Assembly (NCBI GenBank): GCA_903889655.1
Contig: CAISYL010000247.1
Span: 1-36,746 of the forward strand
Direction: 5' to 3'
Length of the DNA stretch: 36,746 nt
From: an uncultured Alphaproteobacteria bacterium
GTDB taxonomy: Bacteria > Pseudomonadota > Alphaproteobacteria > Parvibaculales > Parvibaculaceae
A program made the position numbers and the translations under genes. Positions 1,230 through 28,003 of this stretch are shown here, piece after piece. The notes beneath the pieces were generated by a model that did no database searches, was not told the origin of the DNA, and was given only the letters and a program-made list of their open reading frames with translations. Each line of letters opens with the position of its first letter. Position 1 is the stretch's first letter.

Positions 1230-1257
1230 ACTTCGTGACGATACGGCGGATGAATGT

Positions 1258-6816: not shown

Positions 6817-8224
6817 AATTCTGTCGGTCGCCCTCGCTCTTGCGGTAGCAGGATGCGACATGGCGCCAGATTATGCGCCGCCCAAGATTGCAGTCCCTGC
6901 CGCATACAAGGAAGTGGGGCCGTGGTCGCCGGCGGCGCCCGCCGACGATGCGCATCGCGGGACATGGTGGAGCATATTTCCCGATCCGGTGCTCGACGGG
7001 CTCGAACAGCGCATCGAGAAGCAGAGCCCGCAGCTCGCCGCCGCCGTGGCGCGCTACGATCAGGCGCGCGGCCTTGCGGATCAGGCACGTTCGTCGCTTT
7101 TTCCCTCGCTCGATCTCGAAACGAGCGCGGAGCGCGATCGTCTCTCGGCAAACCGGCCGCTGCAGAACAAGGCGGCGGTCTATAATGACTATGTCGGCGG
7201 TCTTGCAGCAAGTTACGAGCTCGACCTATGGGGCCGGGTGCGCAATCTGGTGGCGCAAGGTAATGCCGACGAGCAGGCGAGTGCCGCCGATCTGGCGTCG
7301 GTGCGCCTGAGCCTGCAGGCGGAGCTCGCCGACGATTACCTTCGCCTGCGTGGCCTCGATGCCGAAATGGCGCTCCTGTCCGACACGGTCGACGCTTTCA
7401 ACAAGGCGTTGAACCTGACGGTCACGCTTCATTCCGGCGGTGCGTCTTCGGGCATTGACGTCGGTCGCGCCGAGACACAGCTGGCATCGGCGAAGGCGCA
7501 ACTCTCCGACGTCGGTGCGGACCGGGCGCTCCTCGAACATGCGATCGCGTCGCTGGTCGGTGAGCCTGCCTCGACCTTTTCGATTGCGCCGGCGGTGCAG
7601 AAGATCGCGACGCCCGTGGTTCCGGTGACGGCGCCGTCGGTTCTTCTGCAGCGTCGTCCCGATATTGCCGCTGCCGAGCGGCGCGTGGCGGCGGCGAATG
7701 CCGGTATCGGCGTTCAGCGGGCGGCCTTCTATCCCGATATCACGCTTGGCCTTTCCGGCGGATTTGAAACCATCGGTGGCGGTTTTCTAAGCGCGCCGAG
7801 CGCCTTTTGGGCATTGGGTCCGGCGGATGCCGTGCTGTCGATCTTCGACGGCGGAGAACGTACTGCCGCGCTCAAGGTGGCGCATGCGCAATTCGACGAG
7901 GCGGCCGCCAATTATCGCCAGACTGTGCTGGACAGTTTCCGCGAGGTCGAAGACGAGATGGCACTGGCGAACCGGCTGGCCGAAGAAGCCCGGCATCAGG
8001 ACGATGCGGTTGCAGCCGCCTCGCGCACCAACAAGCTTGCCTTCGTTCAATACAAGGAAGGCGCGGCCGACTATCTGGGCGTCGTGACTGCGCAGACTGC
8101 TGAACTTCAGGCGGAGATGGCGGCGCTCAATGTGCAGACGCGCAGGCAGCAGGCAGCCATTGCCCTGGTCAGGGCTCTCGGTGGCGGCTGGGAGCAGAGC
8201 GGACCGAAGCTGGCCGATCGCTAG
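6803..8224 (+). CDS. NodT-family outer-membrane efflux lipoprotein (TolC-like)
   Basis: A 473-residue outer-membrane factor forming the exit channel of the RND pump. Starting at ATG 6803 gives a clean lipoprotein signal (MQTARILSVALALAVAGC) with the lipobox Cys at residue 18. An earlier in-frame start at 6758 would bury this signal behind a 15-residue extension and was not chosen. The mature part opens with the family's DMAPDYAPPK motif and contains two OEP repeats. YELDLWGRVRNLV sits in the first repeat and LLQRRPDIAAAERRVAAANAGIG opens the second, both characteristic of NodT-type factors. The start overlaps the adaptor stop by 14 bp. The TAG stop (8222-8224) overlaps the TAG of the convergent oxygenase gene within a single CTAG. 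Confidence 0.94.
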   Translation: MQTARILSVALALAVAGCDMAPDYAPPKIAVPAAYKEVGPWSPAAPADDAHRGTWWSIFPDPVLDGLEQRIEKQSPQLAAAVARYDQARGLADQARSSLFPSLDLETSAERDRLSANRPLQNKAAVYNDYVGGLAASYELDLWGRVRNLVAQGNADEQASAADLASVRLSLQAELADDYLRLRGLDAEMALLSDTVDAFNKALNLTVTLHSGGASSGIDVGRAETQLASAKAQLSDVGADRALLEHAIASLVGEPASTFSIAPAVQKIATPVVPVTAPSVLLQRRPDIAAAERRVAAANAGIGVQRAAFYPDITLGLSGGFETIGGGFLSAPSAFWALGPADAVLSIFDGGERTAALKVAHAQFDEAAANYRQTVLDSFREVEDEMALANRLAEEARHQDDAVAAASRTNKLAFVQYKEGAADYLGVVTAQTAELQAEMAALNVQTRRQQAAIALVRALGGGWEQSGPKLADR

Positions 8225-9252
8225 ATCGCTTTGGGCACATAGGTATAGGCAGCCTTGATGTTCGCCACAGTCCAGTCGCCGGCTTTCACCGGTGGGTGGC
8301 GCGGCGGGTTCGCAGCGTCCTGACAGGTTGGCAGGCATTCGATCGTCGCGTGATAGTTGGCGCCGTAGAAGAAGGCGAGGCTGTAGCGTTTTCTCCCGGA
8401 CAGGTTGATGACGCGGTGGACCGTCGAGCGGAAACGGTCGTTGGTCCAGCGCTGCATGCAGTCGCCGATATTGACGACGAAGGCGCCGGGAATGGGCGGA
8501 GCGGCAATCCACTCGCCCTTGCGGTTCTGCACCTGAAGGCCGTGCTCGCTCTGCGCGAGAATGGTGAAGCATTCGTAATCGGTATGCGCGCCTATGCCGA
8601 TCTGGTTCGGATCGACGGTGCCGGCCTGCGGTGGGTAATAAAGCACGCGGAGCTGACCCATCGGCTTTTCGATCTTCGGCTCGAACCAGTTCTCCTCGAG
8701 TCCGAGCGCCAGCGCGAAGCCGCCGAAGAGGCGCCGGCCGAGCGAAATCATTTCGCTGTAATAGCTGTTCGCTATGTCCTTGAAGTCGGCCGGATGCTCC
8801 GGCCAGACGTTGGGCCCGTACATCGGATTGCCGGCGAGATAATCGGGGTCGGTTTGCGGCAATTCGAGCGACAACTCGAAGCCTTCCTGCAGATCGTGCG
8901 AACTCGCGTTATGCGCGTCGGCGTGGAGACCGCCGACCGGTACGTAGCCGCGATGGCGGTCCGCCTTGTGGATGTCGACCTTGAGTTTCTCTTCCGTCGG
9001 CATTGCGAAGAAGCGGTCGGCGACGCCATAGACCGCGTCGAGCAACGCCTGCGGCACACCGTGATTGGCGACATAGAAGAAGCCGACATGTTCGCAAGCC
9101 TCGCCGATCTTGCGCGCCACGGCTTCGCGCCTGGTGCGGTCCGGATGGGTCAGGTCCGCGATGTCGATCAACGGAATGGAATCGAAGTCGAGTTCCTTCG
9201 CTGAGAGATCGCTGCGGTCGAGCGAAGCTGTTCGTGCCTGAAGGACGGTCAT
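8221..9252 (-). CDS. Isopenicillin N synthase-like 2-oxoglutarate/Fe(II) oxygenase
   Basis: A 343-residue non-haem iron oxygenase of the IPNS/ACC-oxidase/gibberellin-oxidase fold. The N-terminal DIOX domain contains IPLIDIADL and GFFYVANHGVPQALLD (about 26-72). The catalytic domain has the facial triad His223-x-Asp225 (GIGAHTDYE) and His279 (RSTVHRVIN), plus Arg289-x-Ser291 (RYS) for the 2-oxoglutarate C5 carboxylate. Such enzymes hydroxylate, desaturate or demethylate small molecules. The start overlaps the Rieske oxygenase stop by ATGA (9249-9252), so the two oxygenases are translationally coupled and probably act on one substrate. The context with a guanidino/ureido-type hydrolase operon suggests oxidation of a nitrogen-rich compound. 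The open frame extends further upstream without a supported start inside the Rieske gene; the coupled ATG was chosen. Confidence 0.92.
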   Translation of the reverse strand: MTVLQARTASLDRSDLSAKELDFDSIPLIDIADLTHPDRTRREAVARKIGEACEHVGFFYVANHGVPQALLDAVYGVADRFFAMPTEEKLKVDIHKADRHRGYVPVGGLHADAHNASSHDLQEGFELSLELPQTDPDYLAGNPMYGPNVWPEHPADFKDIANSYYSEMISLGRRLFGGFALALGLEENWFEPKIEKPMGQLRVLYYPPQAGTVDPNQIGIGAHTDYECFTILAQSEHGLQVQNRKGEWIAAPPIPGAFVVNIGDCMQRWTNDRFRSTVHRVINLSGRKRYSLAFFYGANYHATIECLPTCQDAANPPRHPPVKAGDWTVANIKAAYTYVPKAI

Positions 9253-10496
9253 ATCGCGCGGTCCGGATAGCGCCCGTCCAGACGCGCGGCGAGGTAGCGC
9301 TGGATCAGCCAGACGGGTTCTTCGAGATGGCTCAACCGGCCGCGCACTACATGGGCGGATTTCAATCCTTTCTGCACGGCCTGGTTCACCTGCATGTCCT
9401 GGGCGTGAAAATCCGAAAGCATTTTCGTTTCCGCCTCGATCACCGCGTCGAATGAAGGATCGGCGTGCGCTTCTTTCGAGATCAGCGTCATGGTGGAGAG
9501 CTTGCAGCGGCTGGCTGAAACGGGTTCGAGCCGATACCAGAGCACGCGATCGCGCATGGTGAGGAACATGAAGCAGGGATAGCCGAGATAAAGGCCCCAT
9601 TCCGTCTGACGGTCGATGGGCAGGCCGTCGATGGGCTTGAAACCGCTCCATGGCTTCGTCCCCGCCGCGATCTCGCGCAGCTCCTCGGCAAGCTCCGGAC
9701 GGAAGGGCAGGTGGCAGCGGATGAAATGCGGATGTTCGGGGTCGGTCCAGGTGGTGCGCGCGGGCATGGTCACCTGCAGCGTGTCGTGATGGATGCCCAT
9801 GTGGTGATAGGATTCCATCCAGTTCTCGATCATCACCTTCCAGTTGAAGTCGCACTCCCATTGAAGCTCGATGACGACCTCCATCTCGTCCGTGTTCCAC
9901 GGTGCGATGGCTTCGCCGAAATCGGCATATTGTTCGGCGAGCGGCGGGGCCTTGCCGTCGAGATTGACGAAAAGGAAGCCGTGCCAGATTTCCGAGCGGA
10001 TGGTGGGGAGCGACCAGTCGCCCTTGACGAAACCCTCGGCGCGCTCCATCTCCGGCGCGCTTACGAGTTGACCGGAAAGGTCGAAGGCCCAGACGTGGTA
10101 AGGGCAGGTGAGGCGCCGCGTCGTGCCCTCGCGAGGCTTGCCGAAGCATTCATGCAGAATGTCGGTGCCGCGATGCGGGCAGATGCGCGACAGCACGCGG
10201 ACGGCACCTGCCTCGTCGCGGACCGCGACCAGCGGCTCGTCGAGAAGGTCGACGGCGATGTAACTGCCGGGTGTCTTCAGTTGCGAAGCGTGGGCGATGC
10301 AGAGCCAACCGGAGGAGAGCACGGCATCGGCCTCCTGGCGGAAATAATCCTCGCTTGTATAGGCGGCCTTCGGCAGTGTGACCGCTCGCGCGAGCGGCTG
10401 GCGCGCTGCCTCCGCGATCTCGCGCCGGATTCCGTCGATGTCCTGCGGCTGGCGCATCGCGCCGGCTTTCATGGGGCTGGAGAAGACGGCACTCAT
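9249..10496 (-). CDS. Rieske non-haem iron ring-hydroxylating-type oxygenase, alpha subunit
   Basis: A 415-residue terminal oxygenase. The N-terminal Rieske domain binds [2Fe-2S] through Cys106-Pro-His108 (ICPHRGTD) and Cys131-Pro-Tyr-His134 (CPYHVWAF). Twenty-two residues separate the two halves, longer than the usual 16-17. The catalytic domain carries FNWKVMIENWMESYHHMGIHH, where His231 and His236 fit the Fe(II) ligand pattern; a conserved Asp nearer the C-terminus, possibly in HAQDMQ, would be the third ligand. Such enzymes hydroxylate or N-/O-demethylate and need an electron-donor reductase, which is not encoded here. It lies downstream of and co-directional with a lysR gene and overlaps the 2OG oxygenase gene by ATGA. 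The substrate is unknown; a role in the neighbouring nitrogen-compound pathway is inferred from position. Confidence 0.93.
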   Translation of the reverse strand: MSAVFSSPMKAGAMRQPQDIDGIRREIAEAARQPLARAVTLPKAAYTSEDYFRQEADAVLSSGWLCIAHASQLKTPGSYIAVDLLDEPLVAVRDEAGAVRVLSRICPHRGTDILHECFGKPREGTTRRLTCPYHVWAFDLSGQLVSAPEMERAEGFVKGDWSLPTIRSEIWHGFLFVNLDGKAPPLAEQYADFGEAIAPWNTDEMEVVIELQWECDFNWKVMIENWMESYHHMGIHHDTLQVTMPARTTWTDPEHPHFIRCHLPFRPELAEELREIAAGTKPWSGFKPIDGLPIDRQTEWGLYLGYPCFMFLTMRDRVLWYRLEPVSASRCKLSTMTLISKEAHADPSFDAVIEAETKMLSDFHAQDMQVNQAVQKGLKSAHVVRGRLSHLEEPVWLIQRYLAARLDGRYPDRAI

Positions 10497-10615: not shown

Positions 10616-11542
10616 TCAAACCGGGGCGTTGCCTGTCTTGCGCATCGCCGCAGCCTGTTGCCTCAGCAACCGCACGAAACTCGTAATCAGAGGGCGCTTC
10701 TCGTCGCTCCGGCGATAGGCGGCGAAATGAGTGGAAAGGAACTGGTAGGTCGAGGGCTTCAGCTCCCGCATCTGCTTCTGTTTCACCCAATCGTCGGCGA
10801 TATGGCGCGGCAGGAAGCCAATGAAACGGCCCGACAGGATCATCATCACCTGCGCCTCCATCTGTACCACCTGACCGCTCGCGCGAGGATGATTGGCGCG
10901 GTAGAGGTCGTCGAACTGGCGATAGCCGCGCACGGAAAAGAGCGCATCCTCGATATGGGCCGGAGTGATCTTGCCCGCCGGCATATCGAAAAGGGCGTGG
11001 CCGCGGCCGCAAAAGAGCCCATGCGGCTCCTGATGGAGCGAGACATAGGTGACGCCCGGCGCCTTCTGCGAGAAGGGGCCGATGGCGATATCGCGCCGCC
11101 CGTCGGCGACGGCCTGCTCAAGGAGGTGCGGCGTGCCGAGTTCGAGATCGATGAAGACGCTGTCCGAATTCTCGAGATAACGGCCGATAATGGCCGGCAG
11201 GCTGAAGACGGGATTGGTCACGACACCGTCGACGATGCCGATCCGGAGCCGGCCGGCGAGTTGTCCCGTATGCTGGCCGACCCGTTCCTCGAAGGTGTGA
11301 ATGTCCGAGAAGAGCTTCTGGGCGGCCGTATAGGTCGCCTCGCCGAAGGGCGTCATCTGAAAGCCGCGACGTCCGCGCACACAAAGAGAGCCGCCAAGCT
11401 TGCGCTCGAGAGCCGCCAGATGTGTGCTGAGCGTAGGCTGGGAAAGGTTGAGGGCGATCTGGGCGTCCGCGAAGCTGCCCGCATCGACCAGCGTCACGAA
11501 GACCCGGAGCAGGCGGAGATCGATATTGTCGAGCCTGCGCAT
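10616..11542 (-). CDS. LysR-family regulator of the oxygenase/ABC-hydrolase locus
   Basis: A 308-residue LysR regulator with an N-terminal winged helix-turn-helix (MRRLDNIDLRLLRVFVTLVD, then SFADAQIALNLSQPTLSTHL). The C-terminal effector-binding domain begins near GRLRIGIVDGVVTNPVF. The ATG at 11542 has GGAGAA just upstream. An in-frame extension to 11665 is rejected because it would consume the operator region and add residues unlike the family N-terminus. The gene is divergent from a nine-gene ABC/hydrolase operon and precedes the two oxygenase genes on its own strand, so it is the obvious local regulator. The effector is probably a pathway substrate or intermediate. The promoter gap contains a striking nested dyad (see 11575-11630). 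Confidence 0.92.
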   Translation of the reverse strand: MRRLDNIDLRLLRVFVTLVDAGSFADAQIALNLSQPTLSTHLAALERKLGGSLCVRGRRGFQMTPFGEATYTAAQKLFSDIHTFEERVGQHTGQLAGRLRIGIVDGVVTNPVFSLPAIIGRYLENSDSVFIDLELGTPHLLEQAVADGRRDIAIGPFSQKAPGVTYVSLHQEPHGLFCGRGHALFDMPAGKITPAHIEDALFSVRGYRQFDDLYRANHPRASGQVVQMEAQVMMILSGRFIGFLPRHIADDWVKQKQMRELKPSTYQFLSTHFAAYRRSDEKRPLITSFVRLLRQQAAAMRKTGNAPV

Positions 11543-11688: not shown

Positions 11689-12693
11689 ATGTCTTTCAAG
11701 CGTATCCTCGCGGCGGGCTTCGGGCTGGCGGTGGCCATGTCCGTGAGCGCTGCCCATGCCGACGATAAAATCAGGATTCTCTGTCCGACCTGGAGCGGCT
11801 ATGCGCCGGTCTTCGTTGCCAACGACCTCGGCTATTTCAAGGCGCTCGGCATCGATGTCGATATCAAGTTCGAAGACGAGCGGCCGAACGTCATGGCGGC
11901 CATGGCGCGCGGCGATATCGAGATGGACATGCGCACGGTCGGTGAATATCAGGGCAAGCCGCGCGACGCGGATACGCCGGGCATCATCATCGGCACGATC
12001 GACGAGTCGCTGGGCGGTGATGGCGTCGTCGCCGACGGATCGATCAAGTCTGTGGAGGATCTCAAAGGCAAGACGGTCGCTTCCGAACCCAATATTCCGG
12101 CGCGCCTCCTCCTGCAGCTCGCGCTGAAGAAAAAGGGAATGACGCTCAACGATCTCAACGTGAAGCAGATTGCGACGGCCGATACGGTCGCCGTCTTCGC
12201 GGACAGTTCGATCGCGGCGGTCGCGACCTATCAGCCCTTCCTGTCGCAGGCGCTGGACAAGATCAAGATGCGCAGCCCGAAAGTGCTCGTGTCATCGAGC
12301 GACTATCCGGGCATCATCGTCGATGTCATCATCGTGCGACAGGACGATCTGAAGGCCAATCCCGAGAAATACCGGAAGTTCCTGATCGGCATCTTCAAGG
12401 CGATCGAATACTTCAAGACCGACAAGACGGACTTCATCAAACTCGCGGCGCCTCATTTCAACCTGAAACCACAGGAATTCGCGGACTCGATCGAAGGCAG
12501 TCTCGTCTATACGTCCTACAAGGACACGGCCGAATATTTCGGCACGCCTGCAAAACCCGGTTCGCTCTACGGCATTTTCGGTACTGTGATGCAGCTCAAT
12601 CTCGAGAATGGCGCCGCCGATCACAAGCTCGTGCCGGCAAAGCAGATCGACAGCTCCATCATGGCGAAGATCAGCGCGAGCGATCTGAAATGA
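11689..12693 (+). CDS. ABC transporter substrate-binding protein, NMT1/SsuA-like
   Basis: A 334-residue periplasmic binding protein. It has a Sec signal peptide, with likely cleavage after Ala24 (SAAHA/DDKIRI). The mature protein belongs to the NMT1/THI5/SsuA-TauA fold, seen in the PTWSGYAPVFVANDLGYFKALGIDVDIKF opening and in SVEDLKGKTVASEPN. Family members bind sulfonates, pyrimidine (thiamine) precursors, nitrate or other small nitrogenous compounds. As the first gene of the operon it probably captures the compound degraded by the enzymes downstream. Its TGA overlaps the permease ATG (ATGA, 12690-12693). I cannot name the ligand; the hydrolases encoded downstream point to a small cyclic or guanidino-type nitrogen compound. 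Confidence 0.9.
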   Translation: MSFKRILAAGFGLAVAMSVSAAHADDKIRILCPTWSGYAPVFVANDLGYFKALGIDVDIKFEDERPNVMAAMARGDIEMDMRTVGEYQGKPRDADTPGIIIGTIDESLGGDGVVADGSIKSVEDLKGKTVASEPNIPARLLLQLALKKKGMTLNDLNVKQIATADTVAVFADSSIAAVATYQPFLSQALDKIKMRSPKVLVSSSDYPGIIVDVIIVRQDDLKANPEKYRKFLIGIFKAIEYFKTDKTDFIKLAAPHFNLKPQEFADSIEGSLVYTSYKDTAEYFGTPAKPGSLYGIFGTVMQLNLENGAADHKLVPAKQIDSSIMAKISASDLK

Positions 12694-13481
12694 GCGAACG
12701 CCCCTCCCAGGGACTTTCCTTTCGCGGAGCGCTGCCGCGCGGCCGGCGATTGATGATCGCCGTCCTCGCGAGCGTTGCAGTGCTGGCTCTCTGGGAGGTG
12801 GCGACGCGGTTCGGCTGGATGAATGCACTCTTCTTTCCGCCACCGAGTACGACCTTCGCGACGCTCGTCGACATGATAGAGGAGAAGAACCTCCTCTATC
12901 ATGCGATGGTTTCGACGGGGCGCGTCTGGCTGGCCTTCGGGCTGTCCGTCGTCATGGCCATACCACTCGGCATGGCCATGAGCAGCTTTCCGGCGGTGGG
13001 GGCGGCGCTCGAACCGATCGTCGATTTCATCCGCTACCTGCCGGTGCCGGCGCTCGTGCCGCTCAGCATCATCTGGTTCGGCGTCGGCGAGGAGACCAAG
13101 ATCTTCCTGCTCTGGCTCGGTACCTTCTTCCAGCTTCTGCTGCTCGTCGCGGACGATATGCGCCGCGTACCGCAGGAATATATCGAAATCGCCTATACGG
13201 TCGGCGCGCGCCCGACGCAGATGCTCTCCGATGTCGCCTTCCGAGCCATGCTGCCGAGCCTCTTCGACAATCTGCGCGTTACGCTCGGCTGGTGCTGGAC
13301 CTATCTCATCATCGCCGAGATCGTCGCCGCCGATAGCGGCCTTGGCTTCGTCATATGGGCAGCGCGGCGCTACATGAACACGTCGGAAGTGATGGCGGGC
13401 GTCGTCGCGATCGGTCTTATCGGTCTTTTCACCGATCAGGCGCTTCGCGTTCTTCACAAATTCATGTTCCGATATCTCTAA
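12690..13481 (+). CDS. ABC transporter permease, SsuC/TauC family
   Basis: A 263-residue inner-membrane permease with about six helices. The binding-protein-dependent transport domain starts with LLYHAMVSTGRVWLAFGLSVV and includes the EAA-type coupling loop around EIAYTVGARPTQMLSDVAFRAMLPS. Length and topology are normal for SsuC/TauC/ThiX permeases, which homodimerise. It overlaps the binding-protein gene by ATGA and is followed 24 bp later by the ATPase gene. Together the three genes form a complete importer. Confidence 0.93.
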   Translation: MSERPSQGLSFRGALPRGRRLMIAVLASVAVLALWEVATRFGWMNALFFPPPSTTFATLVDMIEEKNLLYHAMVSTGRVWLAFGLSVVMAIPLGMAMSSFPAVGAALEPIVDFIRYLPVPALVPLSIIWFGVGEETKIFLLWLGTFFQLLLLVADDMRRVPQEYIEIAYTVGARPTQMLSDVAFRAMLPSLFDNLRVTLGWCWTYLIIAEIVAADSGLGFVIWAARRYMNTSEVMAGVVAIGLIGLFTDQALRVLHKFMFRYL

Positions 13482-13505: not shown

Positions 13506-14282
13506 GTGCCCGCACCTTATCTCGTCTTCAAATCCGTCTCGAAAAACTTCGGCGCGCTCGAAGTGGTCTCGCCGAGCTTCGACCTCGAGGTGAAGCGCCG
13601 AGAATTCGTCGTTTTCCTCGGTCCGTCCGGCTCGGGCAAGACGACGCTGATGCGCATGGTGGGCGGTCTCGAGACGCCGACGAAAGGGCAGATCACGATC
13701 GACGGTCAACCGGTGGAGGGGCCGGATCGCAGCCGCGGCATGGTCTTCCAGTCCTATTCGTCCTTTCCCTGGCTCACCGTCGCGCAGAACGTCGCCTTCG
13801 GCATGAAGTACAGGCTGGACATATCGCCGAAGAAAAAGAAGGAGAGGCTGGCGCATTATCTCGCTCTCGTCGGCCTGACGGATTTCGCGAATGTCTATCC
13901 GAACAAGGTCTCGGGCGGCATGCGCCAGCGCATCGCCATCGCTCGTACGCTGGCGGCCGGCTCGGAAATTCTGCTGATGGACGAGCCCTTTGGTGCACTC
14001 GATGCACAGCGCCGCGAGGATCTGCAACTGCAGCTCCGGCTCATTCAGCAGCAGGATGCGAAGACGGTGATCTTCGTCACGCATGACGTCGACGAGGCGG
14101 TGTTTCTTGCCGACCGCATCATCGTCTTCTCGAAGCGCCCCGCGCGGATGCTCGAGGAGATCGACGTCACCGCGCTTCTGGGAACGGAAAGGACGCTCGC
14201 CCTCCGCGACAGCGAAGCCTTCTTTCACCTGCGGACGAAGATTTTGCGTCTTGTGCGGGCGAGCGCGGGAGCGGACGAATGA
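13506..14282 (+). CDS. ABC transporter ATP-binding protein, SsuB/TauB family
   Basis: A 258-residue ABC ATPase. The Walker A motif is GPSGSGKTT (39-47), the Q-loop is FQSYSSFPW, the signature is VSGGMRQRIAIARTL, Walker B is ILLMDEPFGALDAQ and the H-loop is FVTHDVDEA. The call is GTG at 13506; no strong ribosome binding site is visible and no nearby ATG would keep the first beta-strand, so the exact start is the weakest point. The FGALD and FVTHDVDEA features are typical of SsuB/TauB/NrtD-type importers. The stop overlaps the following SDR start by ATGA. Confidence 0.92.
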   Translation: MPAPYLVFKSVSKNFGALEVVSPSFDLEVKRREFVVFLGPSGSGKTTLMRMVGGLETPTKGQITIDGQPVEGPDRSRGMVFQSYSSFPWLTVAQNVAFGMKYRLDISPKKKKERLAHYLALVGLTDFANVYPNKVSGGMRQRIAIARTLAAGSEILLMDEPFGALDAQRREDLQLQLRLIQQQDAKTVIFVTHDVDEAVFLADRIIVFSKRPARMLEEIDVTALLGTERTLALRDSEAFFHLRTKILRLVRASAGADE

Positions 14283-15049
14283 ACGATCTGCTTGGCCTCA
14301 AGGGCAAAAAGGTGCTCGTCACCGGCGCGAGCCGCGGCATCGGCTATGGCATCGCGGCGGGCTTCGTTGAGGCTGGCGCGGAGCTTTCGATTCTCGCCGA
14401 CGATACGGGCGTGCATGACGCCGCGAAGCGGCTCGGAGATGCGGCGGTCAGATCCTTTCAGTGCGATGTGCGCGATCGCGCCGCCGTTGCCGCAATCTTC
14501 TCCGATTTCGGTCCGCTCGACGTCCTGGTCAACAATGCCGGTCTCGAACTCATCACGCCGCTCGACGATCCGTCACCGGCCGTCGACGAAGTCTTCGAGC
14601 GTATCCTTGCGATCAACGTGACGGGAACATGGAACGTGACGCGCGCGGCCCTGCCGCTGATGGGGGAGGGTGGGCGCATCGTCAACACGGCGTCCGTCTG
14701 GGGCAAATCGGCGGTCGGCGAGTTCGCCGCCTATATCGCGTCGAAACATGCCGTCATCGGTCTCACGCGAACCTTCGCCCGCGAGCTGGGACCGCGCGGC
14801 ATCAACGTCAATGCGGTCTGCCCCGGCTGGGTCAGAACCGAAGCTTCGCTGCGATCACTAAAGGCGATGTCGTCGCGTGCCGAACAGACCGAGGATGCAT
14901 TGCTCGGCGACATTCTCGCCGGTCAGGCGCTGCCGGGGTTGATGAACCCCGATGACGTAGCAGGCCTTTATGTGTTTCTGGCAAGCAAACTTGCCGCCAA
15001 CATTACCGGACAGGCGATCGGGGTCGATCGCGGAGAGTTTCTCGGATGA
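14279..15049 (+). CDS. SDR-family NAD(P)-dependent oxidoreductase
   Basis: A 256-residue classical short-chain dehydrogenase. The nucleotide motif is TGASRGIG (15-22), the NNAG motif lies at 85-88, and the active site is Ser139, Tyr152 and Lys156 (YIASK). GINVNAVCPGWVRTE and a C-terminal TGQAIGVDRG are typical. It would oxidise an alcohol or reduce a ketone. The gene is coupled on both sides by ATGA overlaps, between the importer and a second SDR. The two SDRs may act in sequence on a hydroxylated intermediate, perhaps a product of the divergent oxygenases; this is inference. Confidence 0.92.
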   Translation: MNDLLGLKGKKVLVTGASRGIGYGIAAGFVEAGAELSILADDTGVHDAAKRLGDAAVRSFQCDVRDRAAVAAIFSDFGPLDVLVNNAGLELITPLDDPSPAVDEVFERILAINVTGTWNVTRAALPLMGEGGRIVNTASVWGKSAVGEFAAYIASKHAVIGLTRTFARELGPRGINVNAVCPGWVRTEASLRSLKAMSSRAEQTEDALLGDILAGQALPGLMNPDDVAGLYVFLASKLAANITGQAIGVDRGEFLG

Positions 15050-15777
15050 GTGAATTGAGCGGAAAGACGGCGCTGGTGACGGGCGCCGCGAGCGGTATCG
15101 GCAGGGCAGCAGCGCTCGCGCTGGCGGAGGCCGGTGTGCGGCTCGTGCTCTTCGATCGTGCGCCTGAAATGCAGACGCTGAAGGGCTTTGCTTCGTCCCA
15201 TCTCGCTTTCAGCGTCGATGTCGGCGATGAAGCGGCGGTCATCGCGGCCGTCTCGGCGGCCGATGCCCAAAGCGGCGGCATCGACATCCTCGTGAGCGCG
15301 GCCGGCATCTTCCGCGAGGCGCCGCTCGTCGAAACGACGCTTGCCATGTTCAACGAAGTCATCGGTGTCAACCTCACCGGGAGTTTCCTCGTCGGCCGCG
15401 AAGTTGCCCGCGTCATGGTGGCGCGCGGACGCGGGGGACGCATCATTACGGTCAGCTCCGAGCTCGCGTCGCTCGGCCGCGCGGGCCATACGGCCTATTG
15501 CGCGAGCAAGGGGGCAATCGAGGCGATGACGCGCACATGGGCGCGTGAGCTCGGGCCCGAGATTCTCGTCAATGCAGTGGCGCCCGGGCCGACCGACACG
15601 CCGCTGCTCGATTTCGAAAACCTGCCAGCCCATTGGCGGCAGGCCGAATTGTCCAATCCGCTCGGCCGCATCGGCCGGCCGGAAGAAATCGCGGCCGCGA
15701 TCCGCTTTCTCGCAGGCCCCGGCGCTTCCTTCATGACCGGCCAGGTGGTCGGCGTGAATGGCGGCGCATCTATGTAA
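15046..15777 (+). CDS. SDR-family NAD(P)-dependent oxidoreductase (second)
   Basis: A 243-residue short-chain dehydrogenase with TGAASGIG (12-19), the active-site Ser138 region (VSSELAS) and Tyr151-x3-Lys155 (YCASK). The usual NNAG motif reads SAAG (84-87). The C-terminal MTGQVVGVNGG is typical. It is distinct in sequence from the SDR just upstream, so the pair is not a simple recent duplication. It overlaps the upstream gene by ATGA and is followed after 18 bp by creatininase. It probably oxidises an alcohol intermediate in the same pathway; the substrate is unknown. Confidence 0.92.
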   Translation: MSELSGKTALVTGAASGIGRAAALALAEAGVRLVLFDRAPEMQTLKGFASSHLAFSVDVGDEAAVIAAVSAADAQSGGIDILVSAAGIFREAPLVETTLAMFNEVIGVNLTGSFLVGREVARVMVARGRGGRIITVSSELASLGRAGHTAYCASKGAIEAMTRTWARELGPEILVNAVAPGPTDTPLLDFENLPAHWRQAELSNPLGRIGRPEEIAAAIRFLAGPGASFMTGQVVGVNGGASM

Positions 15778-15795: not shown

Positions 15796-16584
15796 ATGAG
15801 CGACCGCTTGCTGATGAACGAGATGAGCTGGACGACCTACAAGGAGCGGATCGACAAGGGGGCGTTGATCATCCTGCCGGTCGGCGCCACGGAACAGCAT
15901 GGGCCGCATCTGCCGATGGGCACCGATGCGATGCTGTCGACGGCCGTTGCGCTCGACGTTGCGAAGAAAATCGATGCCATCGTCGCGCCTGTCGTCGCCT
16001 TCGGTTACAAGTCGCAGCCGAAAATGGGCGGCGGCAATCATTTCTGCGGCACGACCAGTCTCGACGCCGACACGCTGGCCCATGTCCTGCGCGACGTCAT
16101 CAAGGAATTCGCGCGCCACGGCGTGCGGAAGATGGCGCTCATCAACGGGCATTACGAGAACATGATGTTCACCATCGAGGGCATCGATCTCGCGCTGCGT
16201 GAACTGCGTTATGACGGCATCAAGGATTTCGAGGTGCTGCGTCTCGAATATTGGGATTTCACGACGCAGGAGACGCTCGACAAGGTCTTCCCGGAAGGCT
16301 TCCCGGGCTATGCGCTCGAACATGCCGCCGTGATGGAGACATCGCTGATGCTTCATCATTTCCCGCATCTCGTCGACGAGAGCGCTATTCCGACCGACGA
16401 CATGGCGCATTTCCCGGCCTACGACATGTATCCGACGCGTACGGGATGGGTGCCCTGTTCCGGCGTGCTTTCGCCCGCAAAGGGTGCGGATGCGGCCAAG
16501 GGCGTGTTGCTGGCCGGCGACTACGCCAAAGGCGTTACCGAGGCGATCCTCAAGGAATTCCCGAACGTAAAGGTGAAGGGATGA
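15796..16584 (+). CDS. Creatininase (creatinine amidohydrolase) family protein
   Basis: A 262-residue metal-dependent amidohydrolase. The family signature GATEQHGPHLPMGTD (30-44) and NGHYEN (117-122) place Glu33, His35, Asp44, His119 and Glu121 one position before the metal ligands recalled for Pseudomonas putida creatininase (34, 36, 45, 120, 122). GYKSQ-x-K-x-GGGNHF, EGIDLALRELRY and YWDF also match that enzyme from memory, and the length is nearly identical. The substrate-capping Trp174 region (FLGWDIEH) reads FPGYALEH here, so the ligand may differ. Creatininase opens the creatinine ring to creatine. ATG 15796 is chosen because AAAGGAG (15781-15787) is correctly spaced; 15790 and 15787 are too close. 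The stop overlaps the DUF1989 gene by ATGA. Confidence 0.88.
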   Translation: MSDRLLMNEMSWTTYKERIDKGALIILPVGATEQHGPHLPMGTDAMLSTAVALDVAKKIDAIVAPVVAFGYKSQPKMGGGNHFCGTTSLDADTLAHVLRDVIKEFARHGVRKMALINGHYENMMFTIEGIDLALRELRYDGIKDFEVLRLEYWDFTTQETLDKVFPEGFPGYALEHAAVMETSLMLHHFPHLVDESAIPTDDMAHFPAYDMYPTRTGWVPCSGVLSPAKGADAAKGVLLAGDYAKGVTEAILKEFPNVKVKG

Positions 16585-17183
16585 ACGCCGTCGCAGAAGA
16601 AACAAGGCACCGCGTGCCGCCGCGCAGTGGCAAGGCGGTCCGCCTGAAGGCGGGGCAGTCGATCCGCATCATTAATACGCATGGCCATCAGGTCGTCGAT
16701 ACCTGGGCCTTCAATGCGCATGATCTTACCGAGTTCCTGTCGATGGAGCACATGCGTGCCGCCATCGACCGGGTCATTCCAAAGCCCGGCGACAAGCTCG
16801 TCACCAACCACCGGCGTCCGATCCTGACGCTTGTCGAGGACACATCACCCGGCGTCCACGACACGTTGATCGCAGCCTGCGACATCTATCGGTATCAGGG
16901 TCTCGGTGTCGAAACCTATCACGACAATTGCCAGGACAATCTGAAGGCCGGCCTTGCCGAGCTCGGACTGACGCCGCCCGAGACGCCGTCGCCATTCAAT
17001 CTCTGGATGAACATTCCCTTTGCCAATGGCGAGATCGGCTGGGAGAAGCCGGTTTCGAAGCCCGGCGATTATGTTGTTCTGAAGGCCGAAATGGACTGCA
17101 TCGTCGCGATGTCGGCCTGCCCACAGGACATCATCTGCATCAATGACGGAGCGCCGACAGAGGCGCATTACGAGGTTTTCTGA
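16581..17183 (+). CDS. DUF1989 (urea carboxylase-associated) family protein
   Basis: A 200-residue protein of the DUF1989 family, once called urea carboxylase-associated. Visible signatures are SPGVHDTLIAACD (89-101), YHDNCQDN (113-120) and SACPQDIICINDG (178-190), with conserved Cys100, Cys117 and Cys180. Two members, CgdA and CgdB, are known to form carboxyguanidine deiminase, so the family can remove nitrogen from guanidine-type groups. Here there is a single copy and no adjacent guanidine/urea carboxylase. It lies directly between creatininase and a DDAH-fold enzyme, coupled by ATGA and TGATG. A deiminase role on a guanidino intermediate is a reasonable inference, not shown by sequence. 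Confidence 0.85.
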   Translation: MNAVAEETRHRVPPRSGKAVRLKAGQSIRIINTHGHQVVDTWAFNAHDLTEFLSMEHMRAAIDRVIPKPGDKLVTNHRRPILTLVEDTSPGVHDTLIAACDIYRYQGLGVETYHDNCQDNLKAGLAELGLTPPETPSPFNLWMNIPFANGEIGWEKPVSKPGDYVVLKAEMDCIVAMSACPQDIICINDGAPTEAHYEVF

Positions 17184-18055
17184 TGAGTTCTCCTTCGATC
17201 CCCTGGGGCGTCGATTCCGAAACGGGCGTGCTGCGTCACGTCCTTCTCGGCGCCCCGGATTTCTTTGAATGGCGGCCCGTGAGTGCGGTGGCGCGGCAGA
17301 CGCTGGCGCTGGATCTCAAATTCGACGTGCAGACCGCGATCTCCCAGCATCGCGAGATGGTCGATGCCTATGAGAGCGCCGGCGTCACCTGTCATTGGCT
17401 CGAGGCGAAGCCGGAACTCAAATACAGCGTCTTCGCACGCGACTCGAGTTTTATGACGCCGTTCGGCGCCGTCGTGACGATGATGCAGACGAAGTTTCGC
17501 CGGGGCGATTATTCGCTGGTGCTGAAATTCTATCAGGATCACGGCATTCCGATCTGGAACATGGTGACCGCGGGCCATTTCGAAGGCGGCGATTTCATGG
17601 TCGTCGAACCCGGTTTCGTGCTGTGCGGTTATGGCGGCGAGCGTTCGGAAAAGGAAGGCGCCGAGCAGGTCGTCTCATGGTTCCGCGCCGAGGGCTGGGA
17701 AGCGCATGCCGTGCCGTTTCCTCCCTATTTCGTCCATCTCGACGTTTCGGTCGGCTTCATCGCGCCGAAGCTCGTCGCGGTCTGCGAGGACGCTCACCAG
17801 CCCTGGTTCATCGAGTTGCTGCGCGGGCGCGGATACGAAATTCTTCCGGTCTCCTACAAGGACGCCATGAAGCTCGGCTGCAATCTGGTCAGCCTCGGCG
17901 ACGATCGCGTTCTTTCGACGGCGGAGAATGTCGATCTCAACGCGCGCATGAGGGCGCATGGGATCGAGGTCTTCGCACCCGATCTTTCGATGTACACGCT
18001 GGGCGGAGGCGGCCCACACTGCCTCTGTCAGTCCTTGAAGCGGGATCCGCTATGA
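17183..18055 (+). CDS. DDAH / arginine-deiminase-fold guanidine-modifying enzyme
   Basis: A 290-residue enzyme of the amidinotransferase/dimethylarginine dimethylaminohydrolase superfamily. The motifs occur in order: FARDSSF (84-90), HFEGGDF (132-138), VHLDVSV (184-190) with His185, and GGGPHCLC (274-281/282) with nucleophile Cys280. These are the residues of the Cys-His-carboxylate guanidine hydrolases. Family members convert a guanidino group to a ureido group, or transfer the amidino group, through a covalent Cys intermediate. Placed between a DUF1989 protein and an N-carbamoyl-amino-acid hydrolase, it could convert a guanidino acid to an N-carbamoyl acid. It starts in TGATG with the previous stop and ends in ATGA with the next start. 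The true substrate, perhaps creatine-like rather than methylarginine, is unknown. Confidence 0.9.
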   Translation: MSSPSIPWGVDSETGVLRHVLLGAPDFFEWRPVSAVARQTLALDLKFDVQTAISQHREMVDAYESAGVTCHWLEAKPELKYSVFARDSSFMTPFGAVVTMMQTKFRRGDYSLVLKFYQDHGIPIWNMVTAGHFEGGDFMVVEPGFVLCGYGGERSEKEGAEQVVSWFRAEGWEAHAVPFPPYFVHLDVSVGFIAPKLVAVCEDAHQPWFIELLRGRGYEILPVSYKDAMKLGCNLVSLGDDRVLSTAENVDLNARMRAHGIEVFAPDLSMYTLGGGGPHCLCQSLKRDPL

Positions 18056-19326
18056 ACGAGACCAGTCCTTCCGTCACCAACCTCTCGGTCAATGGCGGCC
18101 GGTTGTGGCAGAGCCTGATGGAAATCGGAGAGATCGGCGCGACGCCCAAGGGCGGTGTCTGCCGGCTCGCACTGTCGGACGAGGACCGGCAGGGTCGCGA
18201 TCTTTTCATCCGCTGGTGCGAGGAGGTGGGTTGCACGATCCGCATCGACCGGATGGGCAATATCTTCGCGCGCCGCGCCGGCCTCGACAATTCTCTGCCG
18301 CCGATCATGACCGGCAGCCATCTCGACACAGTGCCGACGGGCGGAAAGTTCGACGGCATTCTGGGTGTCATGGCCGGGCTTGAAGTGCTGCGGACGCTGC
18401 ACGATCTCGACTATGTGACGCGAGCGCCGGTGGAAGTCGCCGTGTGGACCAACGAGGAAGGTTCGCGCTTCTCGCCTGCCATGGTTTCGTCGGGGGTCTT
18501 CGCGGGCGCGATCCCGATGGAGACGGCCAAGGCGCGGACCGACAAGGATGGAAAGACGCTCGGCGAGGAGCTGAAGCGCATCGGCTATGAAGGCGAGGAT
18601 GAAGTGGGCGGGCGCCCGGTCTCGGCCTTCTTCGAGCTTCACATCGAGCAGGGTCCCGTTCTCGAGGCGGAGAAGAAGACGATCGGCGTGGTGACCGGCG
18701 TGCAGGCGTTTCGCTGGTATGAATTGAAACTCGTCGGCCAGGATGCGCATGCCGGCACGACGCCGATGGAAGCGCGGCGCGATGCGCTGCTCGGCGCCGC
18801 CGATATCATTCGCGAGGTTGATCGTATTGCACGCGATGCCGGGCCACTCGGTCGGGGGACGGTCGGGTTCCTGACCGCGGCGCCCAATGGCCGCAACGTC
18901 ATCACCGGCGAGGTCTTTATGTGCGTCGACCTTCGCCATCCGGACGATGCCGTTCTCGTCGAGATGGGAAAGACCTTGGCGAACGCAGCGGCCAAGATCG
19001 CCGCCGACCACCGCCTTGCGCTCGACTTCAGGGAGATCGTTCATACGCCGGCGGTCGAGTTCGATGTGGTGTGCATCGGGATGGTCCGCGCAGCGGCGGA
19101 GAAGCGCGGGCTCCCGCATCGCGACATCATTTCCGGGGCCGGCCACGACGCCGTCTATATGGCGCGCGTCGCACCGACCTCGATGATCTTCGTTCCCTGC
19201 AAGGACGGGCTCAGTCACAACGAGGCGGAGTGGGCGACGCCGGAAGATTGCGCCGCCGGTTGCGCCGTTCTCCTCGACGCGCTGCTCTCCTTCGACGCGA
19301 CCCTTGCGGCCGCGCCGAAGGCATAG
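18052..19326 (+). CDS. M20-family N-carbamoyl-L-amino-acid hydrolase / allantoate amidohydrolase-like
   Basis: A 424-residue dinuclear metal amidohydrolase of the M20/HyuC-AllC family. Metal-site motifs: GSHLDTVPTGGKFDGILGV (88-106; His90, Asp101), TNEEGSRF (133-140; Glu135/136), FELHIEQGPVLE (194-205; His197) and GLSHNEAEW near the C-terminus (His). GQDAHAGTTPM marks the dimerisation domain. Members split a ureido group from N-carbamoyl amino acids or allantoate, giving ammonia, CO2 and the amine. As the last gene of the operon it would release the final ureido nitrogen and carbon from the compound handled upstream. ATG 18052 overlaps the preceding stop by ATGA; a longer open frame upstream lies inside the DDAH-like gene and was not used. 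Confidence 0.92.
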   Translation: MNETSPSVTNLSVNGGRLWQSLMEIGEIGATPKGGVCRLALSDEDRQGRDLFIRWCEEVGCTIRIDRMGNIFARRAGLDNSLPPIMTGSHLDTVPTGGKFDGILGVMAGLEVLRTLHDLDYVTRAPVEVAVWTNEEGSRFSPAMVSSGVFAGAIPMETAKARTDKDGKTLGEELKRIGYEGEDEVGGRPVSAFFELHIEQGPVLEAEKKTIGVVTGVQAFRWYELKLVGQDAHAGTTPMEARRDALLGAADIIREVDRIARDAGPLGRGTVGFLTAAPNGRNVITGEVFMCVDLRHPDDAVLVEMGKTLANAAAKIAADHRLALDFREIVHTPAVEFDVVCIGMVRAAAEKRGLPHRDIISGAGHDAVYMARVAPTSMIFVPCKDGLSHNEAEWATPEDCAAGCAVLLDALLSFDATLAAAPKA

Positions 19327-19332
19327 CTCACG

Positions 19333-20463
19333 TCAGAGCAGCATATCCGCAAGGATGCGGCGATGATGCGCCGCATCGCCGAACTGGGCTTCGCACCAGA
19401 TGCCGCGGCGGCGATAGAGCTGCGCGTCGCAATCATAGGTGAAGCCGAAACCGCCGTGAAACTGGATCGCGCGGTCGGAGGCGAAGGCGAGCGCGTCGCT
19501 CGACTGCGCCTTGGCCATGCGAACCGCGATCTCGCCATCCTCCCCTTCGCCGATCGCCGTCGCGGCGAAATAGAGGTGGGAGCGTGCCGCTTCCATGGCG
19601 AGAAGGGCATCGACCGTCGGGTGTTTCAGCGCCTGATAGGAGCCGATATATTTCTCGAACTGCTTGCGCGACTTCAGATATTCGACCGTGACGTCGATGA
19701 CGCCGCTTGCGCCGCCGCAAGCCTCGGCGGAAAGGAGGAGGCACGCCGCCTGCTCCAGATGCGCGAGCGTAGCACCGGCCTTCGCCGGATCGAGAAGAGC
19801 GGCGGCTGGGACAGTGACACCGTCGAGCTTCAGCCGATAAGAACGCCGCGTCTCGTCGATGACGATCTCACGTTCTATCTTCGCGGCGCCGAGTGCTGTC
19901 TTGTCGAGAAGCACGAGAGCGGGTCTGCCGTCCAGTGAGGCCGAAACGACGGCGAGATCGGCGGAAGCCGCATCCGTCACAAAAGTCTTGATGCCGGAAA
20001 GGGCAAGCTTGTTGCCCTGCCGCGCGGCCTTGCAGGTCAGGTTCGCAAGGTTCCAGTCGCCATGCGGCTCCGTCAGCGCGAGGGCACCGATGGCGCCTCC
20101 GCAAATCTTTGGTAGCCACTCATTCTTTTGAGCCTGCGTGCCGCCCTTGAGAAGGGCCTGTGCAACCAGCGTCGTCGAGACGAGCGGCGCGCCGGCGAGG
20201 GCGCGGCCCATCGGCTCGACGATCGTCACGACCTCGGCAAGGCCGAGGCCGCTGCCGCCGAATTCCTCCGGCACGGCAACGCCGAGCCAGCCGAGCGCGG
20301 CCATTTCGTCCCACACGCCTTTATCGAAATCCTCGGGCGCCGCGATACGGGCACGGATGCGATCGGCGGGGAACTTGTCGAGGCAGAAACTGGTCGCGAC
20401 TTCGAGCAGCTGCTCCTGCTCATCGCTGAACTGGATGGTCGGTCGTTTGTTTGTGTCCAACAT
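19333..20463 (-). CDS. Acyl-CoA dehydrogenase, probable non-catalytic-type partner subunit
   Basis: A 376-residue acyl-CoA dehydrogenase-fold protein, last gene of the atu-like operon. Recognisable parts are the N-terminal helical domain (VPEEFGGSGLGL), a beta domain (LALTEPHGDWNL) and the C-terminal helical domain (SRKQFEKYIGSYQALKH, IQFHGGFGFTYDCDAQLYRRR). Many related small ACADs have Glu in the GGxGFTxE stretch; here it is Asp344. The usual FER-type catalytic base is not evident either. Such degenerate subunits pair with a catalytic neighbour in alpha2beta2 steroid/terpenoid ACADs, so the next gene upstream is the likely partner. ATG 20463 with GAGG upstream is chosen over GTG 20478. It ends 6 bp from the convergent M20 gene. 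Confidence 0.9.
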   Translation of the reverse strand: MLDTNKRPTIQFSDEQEQLLEVATSFCLDKFPADRIRARIAAPEDFDKGVWDEMAALGWLGVAVPEEFGGSGLGLAEVVTIVEPMGRALAGAPLVSTTLVAQALLKGGTQAQKNEWLPKICGGAIGALALTEPHGDWNLANLTCKAARQGNKLALSGIKTFVTDAASADLAVVSASLDGRPALVLLDKTALGAAKIEREIVIDETRRSYRLKLDGVTVPAAALLDPAKAGATLAHLEQAACLLLSAEACGGASGVIDVTVEYLKSRKQFEKYIGSYQALKHPTVDALLAMEAARSHLYFAATAIGEGEDGEIAVRMAKAQSSDALAFASDRAIQFHGGFGFTYDCDAQLYRRRGIWCEAQFGDAAHHRRILADMLL

Positions 20464-20478
20464 GGTTTCACGCCTCAC

Positions 20479-21684: not shown

Positions 21685-21700
21685 TCGTCGTCCCTCTCTT

Positions 21701-22891: not shown

Positions 22892-22907
22892 TCCGTTTTT
22901 CTCCGCG

Positions 22908-23519
22908 TCAGAGTGCGACGGCGCGCTGGAAAGCGGGCCGCGCGCTCAGTCGTTGGTAATAGGCTTCCGTATTCGGCTTGAAGCCGGGACGAAGACCGAG
23001 CGTCTCGGCGAGATAGAGCGCATAGCCGATGCAGATGTCGGCAATCGTGAAACGTCCGGCGCAGAGGAATTCGCGCTCGCCCGTTGCCCGCTCGACGCTC
23101 TTCAGCCGCGAGAAGAACCATTGCGTATAGTCGTCGACGGCCTGCTTCAGTCTGCGCTCTTCGGGTTCGAGCTGCGTGTAGCGCAGCACGATCGTTTGAG
23201 GGAAGGTCAGCGTTGCGTCGCTGCGGTGCAGCCAGTTGAGGTAGAGGCCGTAGTCCTTGTCCTTCGGCGTCAAGCCGAGATCGGAAGGGCCGTGGCAATC
23301 GACGAGATACTGGCAGATCGCCGCCGATTCCGTCATCGTCAAGTCGCCTTCGGTCATCGTGGGCACCGTGCCGAGCGGGTTGATGTCGAGATAGCCCTCG
23401 TGGAGAACGCGCGGCGGAAATTTCATCGACACGAGCTCATAGGGAATGCCCATTTCCTCGAGCGTCCAGAGTGGCCTGACCGAGCGTGCCGTCTTGCAAT
23501 GATAAAGCTTTATCGTCAT
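22908..23519 (-). CDS. Glutathione S-transferase family protein
   Basis: A 203-residue cytosolic GST. The thioredoxin-like N-terminal domain reads MTIKLYHCKTARSVRPLWTL, with NPLGTVPTM supplying the cis-Pro loop and MTESAAICQYL the glutathione-binding Glu-Ser. An all-helical C-terminal domain follows from about residue 90 (FTIADICIGYALYL). Its role in an acyl-CoA carboxylase operon is unclear; it could conjugate or isomerise a reactive unsaturated intermediate. Its start lies 1 bp after the carboxylase alpha gene stop, with GGAG inside that gene's end, so it is coupled to it. No GST belongs to the classical Pseudomonas atu set, so this is a local addition. Confidence 0.92.
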   Translation of the reverse strand: MTIKLYHCKTARSVRPLWTLEEMGIPYELVSMKFPPRVLHEGYLDINPLGTVPTMTEGDLTMTESAAICQYLVDCHGPSDLGLTPKDKDYGLYLNWLHRSDATLTFPQTIVLRYTQLEPEERRLKQAVDDYTQWFFSRLKSVERATGEREFLCAGRFTIADICIGYALYLAETLGLRPGFKPNTEAYYQRLSARPAFQRAVAL

Positions 23520-23520
23520 C

Positions 23521-25524: not shown

Positions 25525-25535
25525 CGCGAATCCCA

Positions 25536-26348: not shown

Positions 26349-26365
26349 TTTCTATTCTCCCGAAT

Positions 26366-27988: not shown

Positions 27989-28003
27989 GCGAACTTCTCC
28001 GGA

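Follow-up and report, generated by a model that had tools for sequence, protein, structure and literature searches.

Which compound is broken down by a locus in which a creatininase homologue, two candidate deiminases and an M20 hydrolase follow the genes of an importer and two dehydrogenases? Such a locus lies in contig CAISYL010000247.1 of assembly GCA_903889655.1, from an uncultured alphaproteobacterium of the family Parvibaculaceae; its 36,746 nucleotides are the stretch that we analysed and are called the window below. Interest in guanidino compounds within the nitrogen cycle is growing, and small ones are known to be used mainly through ureohydrolases and the guanidine carboxylase pathway. 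The initial annotation of the window had proposed that four coupled genes at positions 15796-19326 take creatinine or a similar ring to an amino acid without creatinase. These genes proved to be real, as evident from their Pfam and NCBIfam matches, and they overlap there at ATGA (creatininase/DUF1989), TGATG (DUF1989/DDAH) and ATGA (DDAH/M20) junctions. The two short-chain dehydrogenases (SDR1 and SDR2) and two oxygenases, which that annotation left unused, shift the probable substrate. We regard the chances as about even that the locus serves to break down a guanidino compound that is imported, cyclic (or cyclising) and open to oxidation, and that would be oxidised, ring-opened, deiminated and decarbamoylated.

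Gene order and proposed pathway

The genes, their order and their overlaps were observed directly, as were the neighbourhoods and swaps in other genomes described below. Nine genes form one run on the + strand and encode a substrate-binding protein (SBP), a permease and an ATPase of an ATP-binding cassette (ABC) transporter, SDR1, SDR2, the creatininase homologue, a DUF1989 protein, a DDAH-fold protein and the M20 protein. Short gaps separate permease from ATPase and SDR2 from creatininase; at the other six of the eight junctions, start and stop codons overlap. Opposite this run, behind a divergent LysR gene, a Rieske oxygenase and a 2-oxoglutarate (2OG) dioxygenase are encoded on the - strand, the start codon of the latter overlapping the stop of the former.

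Every substrate and reaction of the following pathway is one that we infer. The NitT-type ABC transporter would import a cyclic or cyclising guanidino compound. The oxygenase and/or the NAD-dependent SDRs would convert a carbon next to nitrogen to a hemiaminal and then to a carbonyl, yielding a creatinine-like cyclic acyl-guanidine, which the creatininase paralogue would open to a guanidino acid. Deimination of this acid to a ureido acid and ammonia would fall to the DDAH-fold enzyme, together with or alongside DUF1989, and M20 would release the amino acid, CO2 and ammonia; the deiminase and M20 steps would replace a one-step ureohydrolase. Our best guess for the final steps is 3-guanidinopropionate to 3-ureidopropionate to beta-alanine. 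The step order, as first annotated, is supported by the pairing of DDAH-fold and M20 genes and by a ureohydrolase directly after creatininase in two loci (L158 and L165), whereas creatinine as the starting compound was not supported.

Pairing of the deiminase candidates with M20

The DDAH-fold protein matches both fold models (Table 1), and Cys280, which had been singled out at the outset, aligns with the catalytic position of DDAH; His185, Glu134, Asp87 and Arg154 also align with DDAH positions that we take to be catalytic or carboxylate-binding. The protein falls below all NCBIfam cut-offs for DDAH and arginine deiminase (ADI) equivalogs (69.5 vs 300, 63.5 vs 414 and 60.4 vs 340 bits). A DDAH-fold alignment was scanned against genome contigs, many of them short, which confirmed 344 loci among at least 596 stretches; the best 80 were kept. 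An M20 gene lay no more than 2.5 kb from the DDAH-fold gene in 17 of these 80 loci, in every case sharing its strand and at most about 110 bp away, and directly downstream on the same strand in 13 of the 74 loci having 1 kb downstream; the loci counted are related to one another. The remaining 810 kb of the 80 loci contained no M20 match of at least 120 bits. Because M20 adjoins the DDAH-fold gene in 17 of the 80 loci and was found nowhere else in them, a deiminase-carbamoylase pair is supported; the sequence pattern suggests that it serves guanidino acids and is not tied to creatinine. A relative of 5-guanidino-2-oxopentanoate decarboxylase was present in nine of the 80 loci, and in L002 the DDAH-M20 pair stands alongside a betaine-type importer.

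The window M20 belongs to the hydantoinase/carbamoylase amidase family (TIGR01879; Table 1). It matched N-carbamoyl-beta-alanine amidohydrolase (8c46) with 444.5 bits and allantoate amidohydrolase with 186.3 bits, and it fell below the AllC (259.8 vs 597.75) and ErtE (375.1 vs 520) cut-offs.

DUF1989-related proteins are, we assume, carboxyguanidine deiminases (Schneider 2020 is said to describe such relatives), and owing to this relationship a role of the window protein as a second guanidine deiminase is plausible by analogy. Its scores lie below the carboxyguanidine deiminase cut-offs (UAAP2, 101.1 vs 284.7; UAAP1, 61.5 vs 205.95). It is 66% identical to the DUF1989 protein of L131, which adjoins M20 and has a ureohydrolase nearby. 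Of the 338 plasmid records that carry a DUF1989 relative, eight were read: M20 was adjacent in L131 and L135, an agmatinase-family gene was near in L131 and L132, and an amidase with a "polysaccharide deacetylase" was present in L133, L134, L136, L137 and L138.

Related gene sets were observed elsewhere. L131 and L135, from Paraburkholderia and Klebsiella plasmids, carry a module of an amino-acid ABC importer, M20, DUF1989 and a cupin. A DDAH-fold gene, a DUF1989 relative (31-32%) and a Rieske oxygenase lie within 5 kb in L029 (10001-14221) and L031 (10001-14757), the Rieske proteins being about 31% identical to that of the window (Pfam in L029). SDR1-like, SDR, "polysaccharide deacetylase" hydrolase and polyamine-type ABC genes are grouped in L080 (10001-17266) and L174 (7282-11243), adjoining a second DDAH-fold gene in L080; judged by their genes, these sets look like the same scheme with a different ring-opening enzyme.

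Ureohydrolase in place of the deiminase genes

In the one-contig genome G383 (L158), a LysR gene and an SBP-permease-ATPase-SDR1-SDR2-creatininase run are followed by a ureohydrolase gene, beyond which lie an amino-acid ABC importer, DUF1989 and a PuuR-like HTH-cupin protein. In L165 (Rhizobium CIAT894 plasmid), a ureohydrolase gene is directly 3' of creatininase, and the SDR pair is 1.6 kb off. The L158 and L165 ureohydrolases matched solved 3-guanidinopropionase best (443.8 and 462.4 bits, vs 315.5 and 313.5 bits for guanidinobutyrase).

Ureohydrolase and DDAH-fold genes were searched in nine genomes: that of the window (G000), G027 of the same family, four metagenome-assembled genomes (MAGs) with a similar cassette, G383, G328 and the creatinase control G315. 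No ureohydrolase homologue was found in G000 or G027 at E<=1e-20; G383 had the query and a 46% homologue, G328 one at 52% and three weaker ones, and G315 three at 32-45%. A DDAH-fold gene of at least 78% identity was present in G000, G027 and the four cassette MAGs. At E<=1e-10 none was found in G383 or G315, and G328 gave only 27-30% matches.

Creatininase homologue and its companions

As the initial annotation stated, the metal ligands are complete: E34, H36, D45, H120 and E122, presumably the ligands of P. putida creatininase, are all kept in the window protein, as they are in 36 of the 37 rows compared (L171 has Asn at 120). Given that Lys77, Tyr121 and Trp154 are also retained, a flat ring may still bind. 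Trp174 and Ser78, which we take to be creatinine pocket residues, are replaced by Tyr and Met. Trp174 occurs in 12/12 creatinase-labelled rows, 3/5 "other" rows and 0/20 SDR-linked rows. The creatinase-labelled rows comprise nine homologues beside an M24 creatinase gene (L128-L130, L159-L161, L170, L172 and L173), which are closest to the P. putida enzyme, the solved P. putida enzyme as reference, and two homologues from L120, where the M24 gene (39%) is more than 5 kb away; of the five "other" rows, L122 and L124 were excluded from the SDR-linked count, the SDRs lying 1-3 kb off there (32% and 39%) being unrelated ones.

In the midpoint-rooted tree of the 37 rows, which has long branches including L171 and L165, the P. 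putida enzyme and the nine creatinase-adjacent rows form a ten-row clade (support 100/98) that excludes the window. The window row joins the four cassette rows (100/99) and L156 (88/86). The SDR1-SDR2 rows are not monophyletic (three changes), and the neighbourhood groups need seven changes in all on the tree vs a shuffled mean of 21.6. A relative of SDR2 lies beside the creatininase gene in 20 of the 37 rows (1.6 kb away in L165); nine of these also have SDR1, seven a Rieske oxygenase and four a fatty-acid-desaturase-like protein, as assigned by Pfam for two Rieske proteins and one desaturase-like protein and by tblastn for the others.

TIGR04448 was passed by all seven homologues scanned, one creatinase-linked and six SDR-linked (window, L119, L127, L158, L165 and L171). 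The scores were 347.6 bits beside a Rieske gene, 320.7 beside a desaturase-like gene, 314.0 beside an FMN-monooxygenase gene, and 366.8 and 316.4 beside ureohydrolase genes; since homologues in all these contexts pass it, this model is no marker of creatinine users.

Other neighbourhoods of creatininase homologues are as follows. In L171 (Salipiger sp. CCB-MM3 plasmid, 856-7233), a "Urea" NitT-type importer, an FMN monooxygenase, a creatininase homologue and two SDRs form one run. Eleven loci (L114-L119, L121, L123 and L125-L127) combine SDR-creatininase pairs with a Rieske or desaturase-like oxygenase and have no match to the labelled guanidine genes; their composition suggests a separate uncharacterised oxygenase-dehydrogenase-amidohydrolase module. 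In L169 (4989-8959), the homologue is beside genes annotated as cytosine deaminase, nucleoside deaminase and amidohydrolase.

Conservation of the cassette, dehydrogenases and oxygenases

Four of the DDAH-fold loci (L016, L017, L018 and L022; two titled Hyphomicrobium, two Proteobacteria) contain LysR and the whole importer-SDR1-SDR2-creatininase-DUF1989-DDAH block at 56-84% identity. LysR is 69-77% identical in these loci and in L096, the G027 cassette. Another open reading frame (ORF; cluster 24), GGDEF-like as read in L016, is common to the four loci 3' of the DDAH-fold gene. G027 has LysR and SDR2-DUF1989-DDAH-M20 at 61-81%, with SDR1 not alongside and the nearest ABC genes at no more than 41% to those of the window; the contig ends just past M20. 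SDR1, SDR2 and creatininase occur together in nine loci (window, L016, L017, L018, L022, L156, L158, L165 and L171). Among 26 same-genus genomes, none had the DDAH-fold gene and nine had a creatininase homologue. The DDAH-fold relatives in L019, L020 and L021 (69, 63 and 59%) have neighbours of no clear bearing by Pfam, except for an amidase in L021. No SBP relative was found in plasmids at E<=1e-40, and 398 genomes of the phylum yielded one further SBP (G646, 57%) with permease, ATPase and an amidohydrolase-family neighbour; the other cassette genes were not found in the 32 kb around it.

In the alignment, both window SDRs have an acidic residue at the end of strand beta2, which we take as a hallmark of NAD users, and both are probably NAD-dependent. 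The chemistry of GbcA/CntA-type enzymes is one basis for the proposed hemiaminal. The other is N-(hydroxymethyl)guanidine, a guanidine hemiaminal of reportedly surprising stability (PMC12508155). The window Rieske protein itself lies below the GbcA cut-off (Table 1). A hemiaminal-then-SDR mechanism would account for the recurrence of an SDR2 relative next to these creatininases with changing oxygenases; it leaves the individual parts of SDR1, DUF1989 and the 2OG dioxygenase still to be explained.

Rieske enzymes directly beside SDR-creatininase pairs in L114-L119 and L121 share 55-58% identity with that of the window, a comparison among genomes picked for having a creatininase homologue, which reveals the companions of that homologue and not the specificity of the Rieske enzyme. 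The window protein is 63-64% identical to those of G328 and G420, which also have the SDR1-SDR2-creatininase set, on contigs other than that of the Rieske gene; the next relatives reach at most 41%. Among the loci examined, relatives of the 2OG dioxygenase were present only about 4 kb from the G027 cassette (43%) and flanking the DDAH-fold gene of L056 (36% and 29%).

Weighing of the explanations

Creatinine could pass through creatine (creatininase) and N-carbamoylsarcosine (DDAH fold) to sarcosine (M20). The TIGR04448 match, the metal ligands and the retained Lys77, Tyr121 and Trp154 agree with this, and the absence of creatinase, first noted for the window, extends to the whole genome (no homologue at E<=1e-20), so that another route would be needed. 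TIGR04448, however, also accepts homologues in other contexts, Trp174 and Ser78 are exchanged, the window row lies outside the P. putida clade, creatinine offers no obvious role for the SDRs and oxygenases, and the ureohydrolases that follow creatininase elsewhere are of the 3-guanidinopropionase type. In addition, soxB (sarcosine oxidase beta) was above the cut-off in eight of nine genomes searched, the exception being that of the window (best 110.9 vs 529.45, in a search that did not extend to monomeric sarcosine oxidase and dehydrogenases), and creatinase homologues (E<=1e-20) were absent from eight cassette or related genomes, the control G315 having two. The SDRs, oxygenases, pocket changes and soxB and creatinase results make creatinine unlikely in this genome, and we hold this creatinase-free route to be decidedly improbable. 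Alternatively, the creatininase paralogue might cleave another bond (a diketone C-C bond as in IolN, or an N-formyl bond as in riboflavin formamidase), a non-guanidine ring being degraded while DDAH and M20 handle a side chain with a guanidino group or act on another compound. Family members carry out such chemistry (IolN; riboflavin formamidase, PMC9478397), and the 11 SDR-creatininase loci unmatched by labelled guanidine genes would fit. This appears rather unlikely in view of the IolN score (90.1 vs a cut-off of 245), the retention of Trp154 and Tyr121 of the creatinine pocket, and a ureohydrolase as the next gene in two distant loci. A loose nitrogen-scavenging cluster, with separate hydrolases acting on separate substrates under one regulator and no linear pathway, would account for the variable gene content, such as the absence of M20 from four cassettes and of creatininase from G027; six start/stop overlaps in nine genes, the recurrence of the SDR1-SDR2-creatininase set in nine loci and the replacement of DUF1989-DDAH-M20 by a ureohydrolase in L158 render it improbable. 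Streptidine, pterins, ectoine and glycation adducts were considered as substrates and dropped, genomic evidence for them being neither looked for nor met with.

Several results weigh against the preferred reading, the oxidation and opening of a guanidino ring followed by deimination and decarbamoylation. All four families together were found in none of the other DDAH-fold loci (0/80 by tblastn at E<=1e-12, best 80 of 344), so that of the co-conservation suggested as a check, the strict four-gene set failed and the larger cassette recurred in four loci. In those four, M20 is not in the operon; one M20 (57-59%) is found elsewhere in each genome, and no dihydropyrimidinase was found among the six ORFs neighbouring it in three loci (peroxiredoxin, two thioredoxin-reductase-like proteins, solute-binding protein, molybdopterin oxidoreductase and, in L155, a cytidine-deaminase-family protein). 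G027 has no creatininase homologue at E<=1e-40, so ring opening would be dispensable there. The Rieske homologue was not found in G383, G421 or G423 at E<=1e-30 and G422 had only a 31% one, which makes the oxygenase an optional front end, and in L127 and L171 the SDR2-type protein is without the acidic residue for NAD. Sixteen of the 80 DDAH-fold loci include a ureohydrolase, and one at 41-42% identity is present in each of the four cassette MAGs that also have the DDAH-fold gene; in Rhodobacteraceae-type loci (L002, L049, L052, L054, L073 and L075), DDAH, M20, arginase-family and agmatinase genes are lined up together. The ureohydrolase and deiminase routes are thus not generally exclusive, and ureohydrolases in DDAH-fold loci lowered our confidence in both the preferred reading and the oxidative route and made two of the alternatives slightly more probable. 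Among solved proteins, M20 is matched best by uncharacterised ones (543.7, 525.8 and 497.5 bits), which score higher than 8c46. Finally, the lactam step is chemistry by analogy, DUF1989 is given no definite role, and no search brought up a characterised protein from the subfamilies to which the creatininase, DUF1989 and DDAH-fold proteins of the window belong.

Features of the locus and its surroundings

The features are collected in Table 1. Score comparisons below a cut-off are given as such.

Table 1. Position, strand and supporting evidence of the genes at the locus.
Feature	Position	Strand	Evidence
2OG/Fe(II) dioxygenase (DIOX_N + 2OG-FeII_Oxy)	8221..9252	-	Pfam on longer ORF; HxD..H..RxS motif
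Rieske oxygenase, GbcA/CntA-like	9249..10496	-	NCBIfam GbcA 130.5 bits, below cut-off 670
LysR regulator	10616..11542	-	Pfam; probable start 11542, ORF open to 11665
NMT1/SsuA-type SBP	11689..12693	+	PF09084 70.9 bits
ABC permease	12690..13481	+	PF00528
ABC ATPase	13506..14282	+	PF00005
SDR1	14279..15049	+	PF13561; YxxxK; probably NAD-dependent
SDR2	15046..15777	+	PF13561; probably NAD-dependent
Creatininase paralogue, putative cyclic acyl-guanidine hydrolase	15796..16584	+	PF02633 199.8 bits; TIGR04448 378.8 bits, cut-off 235
DUF1989 protein, putative second deiminase or accessory hydrolase	16581..17183	+	PF09347 178.7 bits
DDAH/ADI-fold protein, putative guanidino-acid deiminase	17183..18055	+	PF02274 64.0 bits, cut-off 22.8; PF19420 55.0 bits, cut-off 23; Cys280
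M20, N-carbamoyl amino acid hydrolase family	18052..19326	+	TIGR01879 452.4 bits, cut-off 204

After M20, an ORF on the opposite strand (19333-20478) looks like an acyl-CoA dehydrogenase. Further genes at 20482-29815 (-), encoding acyl-CoA dehydrogenase, biotin carboxylase, enoyl-CoA hydratase, carboxyltransferase and AtuA, resemble an acyclic terpene or leucine-type catabolic cluster, and an AcrB-type RND efflux pump with an outer membrane efflux protein is encoded at 2454-8224 (+).

Comparison with known systems

A route from a Rieske or other oxygenase through an SDR, a creatininase paralogue and a DDAH-fold deiminase to M20, undescribed before, is a tentative proposal. In the literature searched, which covers few subscription journals, we found no paper joining creatininase with DUF1989 or with Rieske and short-chain dehydrogenase degradation, none on a creatine to N-carbamoylsarcosine deiminase with bacterial creatininase or on creatininase Trp154/Trp174, and no occurrence of "guanidinobutyrate", "guanidinopropionate", "creatine" or "guanidinoacetate deiminase". 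If true, the route would assign new activities to SDR-linked creatininases and to this DUF1989/DDAH subfamily and would offer an alternative to guanidinopropionase or guanidinobutyrase that forms no urea; a creatininase paralogue feeding a deiminase and a carbamoylase would extend the known uses of guanidino compounds. It would also show that the name creatininase, under which six SDR-linked homologues pass a curated model, spans enzymes of differing function.

The creatininase-creatinase pathway (creatinine to creatine to urea and sarcosine) shares with the window the creatininase-family metal ligands and a nearby LysR gene, whereas the window has no creatinase, another importer type, SDRs and oxygenases, a replaced Trp174 and a position outside the P. 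putida clade. In the guanidine carboxylase pathway, the carboxyguanidine deiminase CgdAB presumably corresponds to UAAP1/2, which are of the DUF1989 type. The window resembles that pathway in its DUF1989 protein and in an SBP distantly related to the putative urea SBP model (TIGR03427, 66.1 bits, below the cut-off of 333.9) and differs in that DUF1989 scores below the UAAP2 and UAAP1 cut-offs; no carboxylase model was among the matches of the nine cassette proteins scanned, and no guanidine carboxylase search of the genome was made. The 3-guanidinopropionase (GpuA) and guanidinobutyrase routes would act on the same kind of guanidino acid, and such a ureohydrolase follows creatininase in L158 and L165, but it yields urea, while the window has a Cys deiminase fold and M20. 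Dimethylargininase and arginine deiminase share the fold and the aligned catalytic Cys, His, Glu, Asp and Arg, although the window protein is under all their NCBIfam cut-offs (best 69.5 vs 300). In methylguanidine demethylation by MgdH/MgdL (PMC12508155), an oxygenase also makes a guanidine hemiaminal; there a lyase releases formaldehyde, whereas for the window a dehydrogenase and a hydrolase are proposed.

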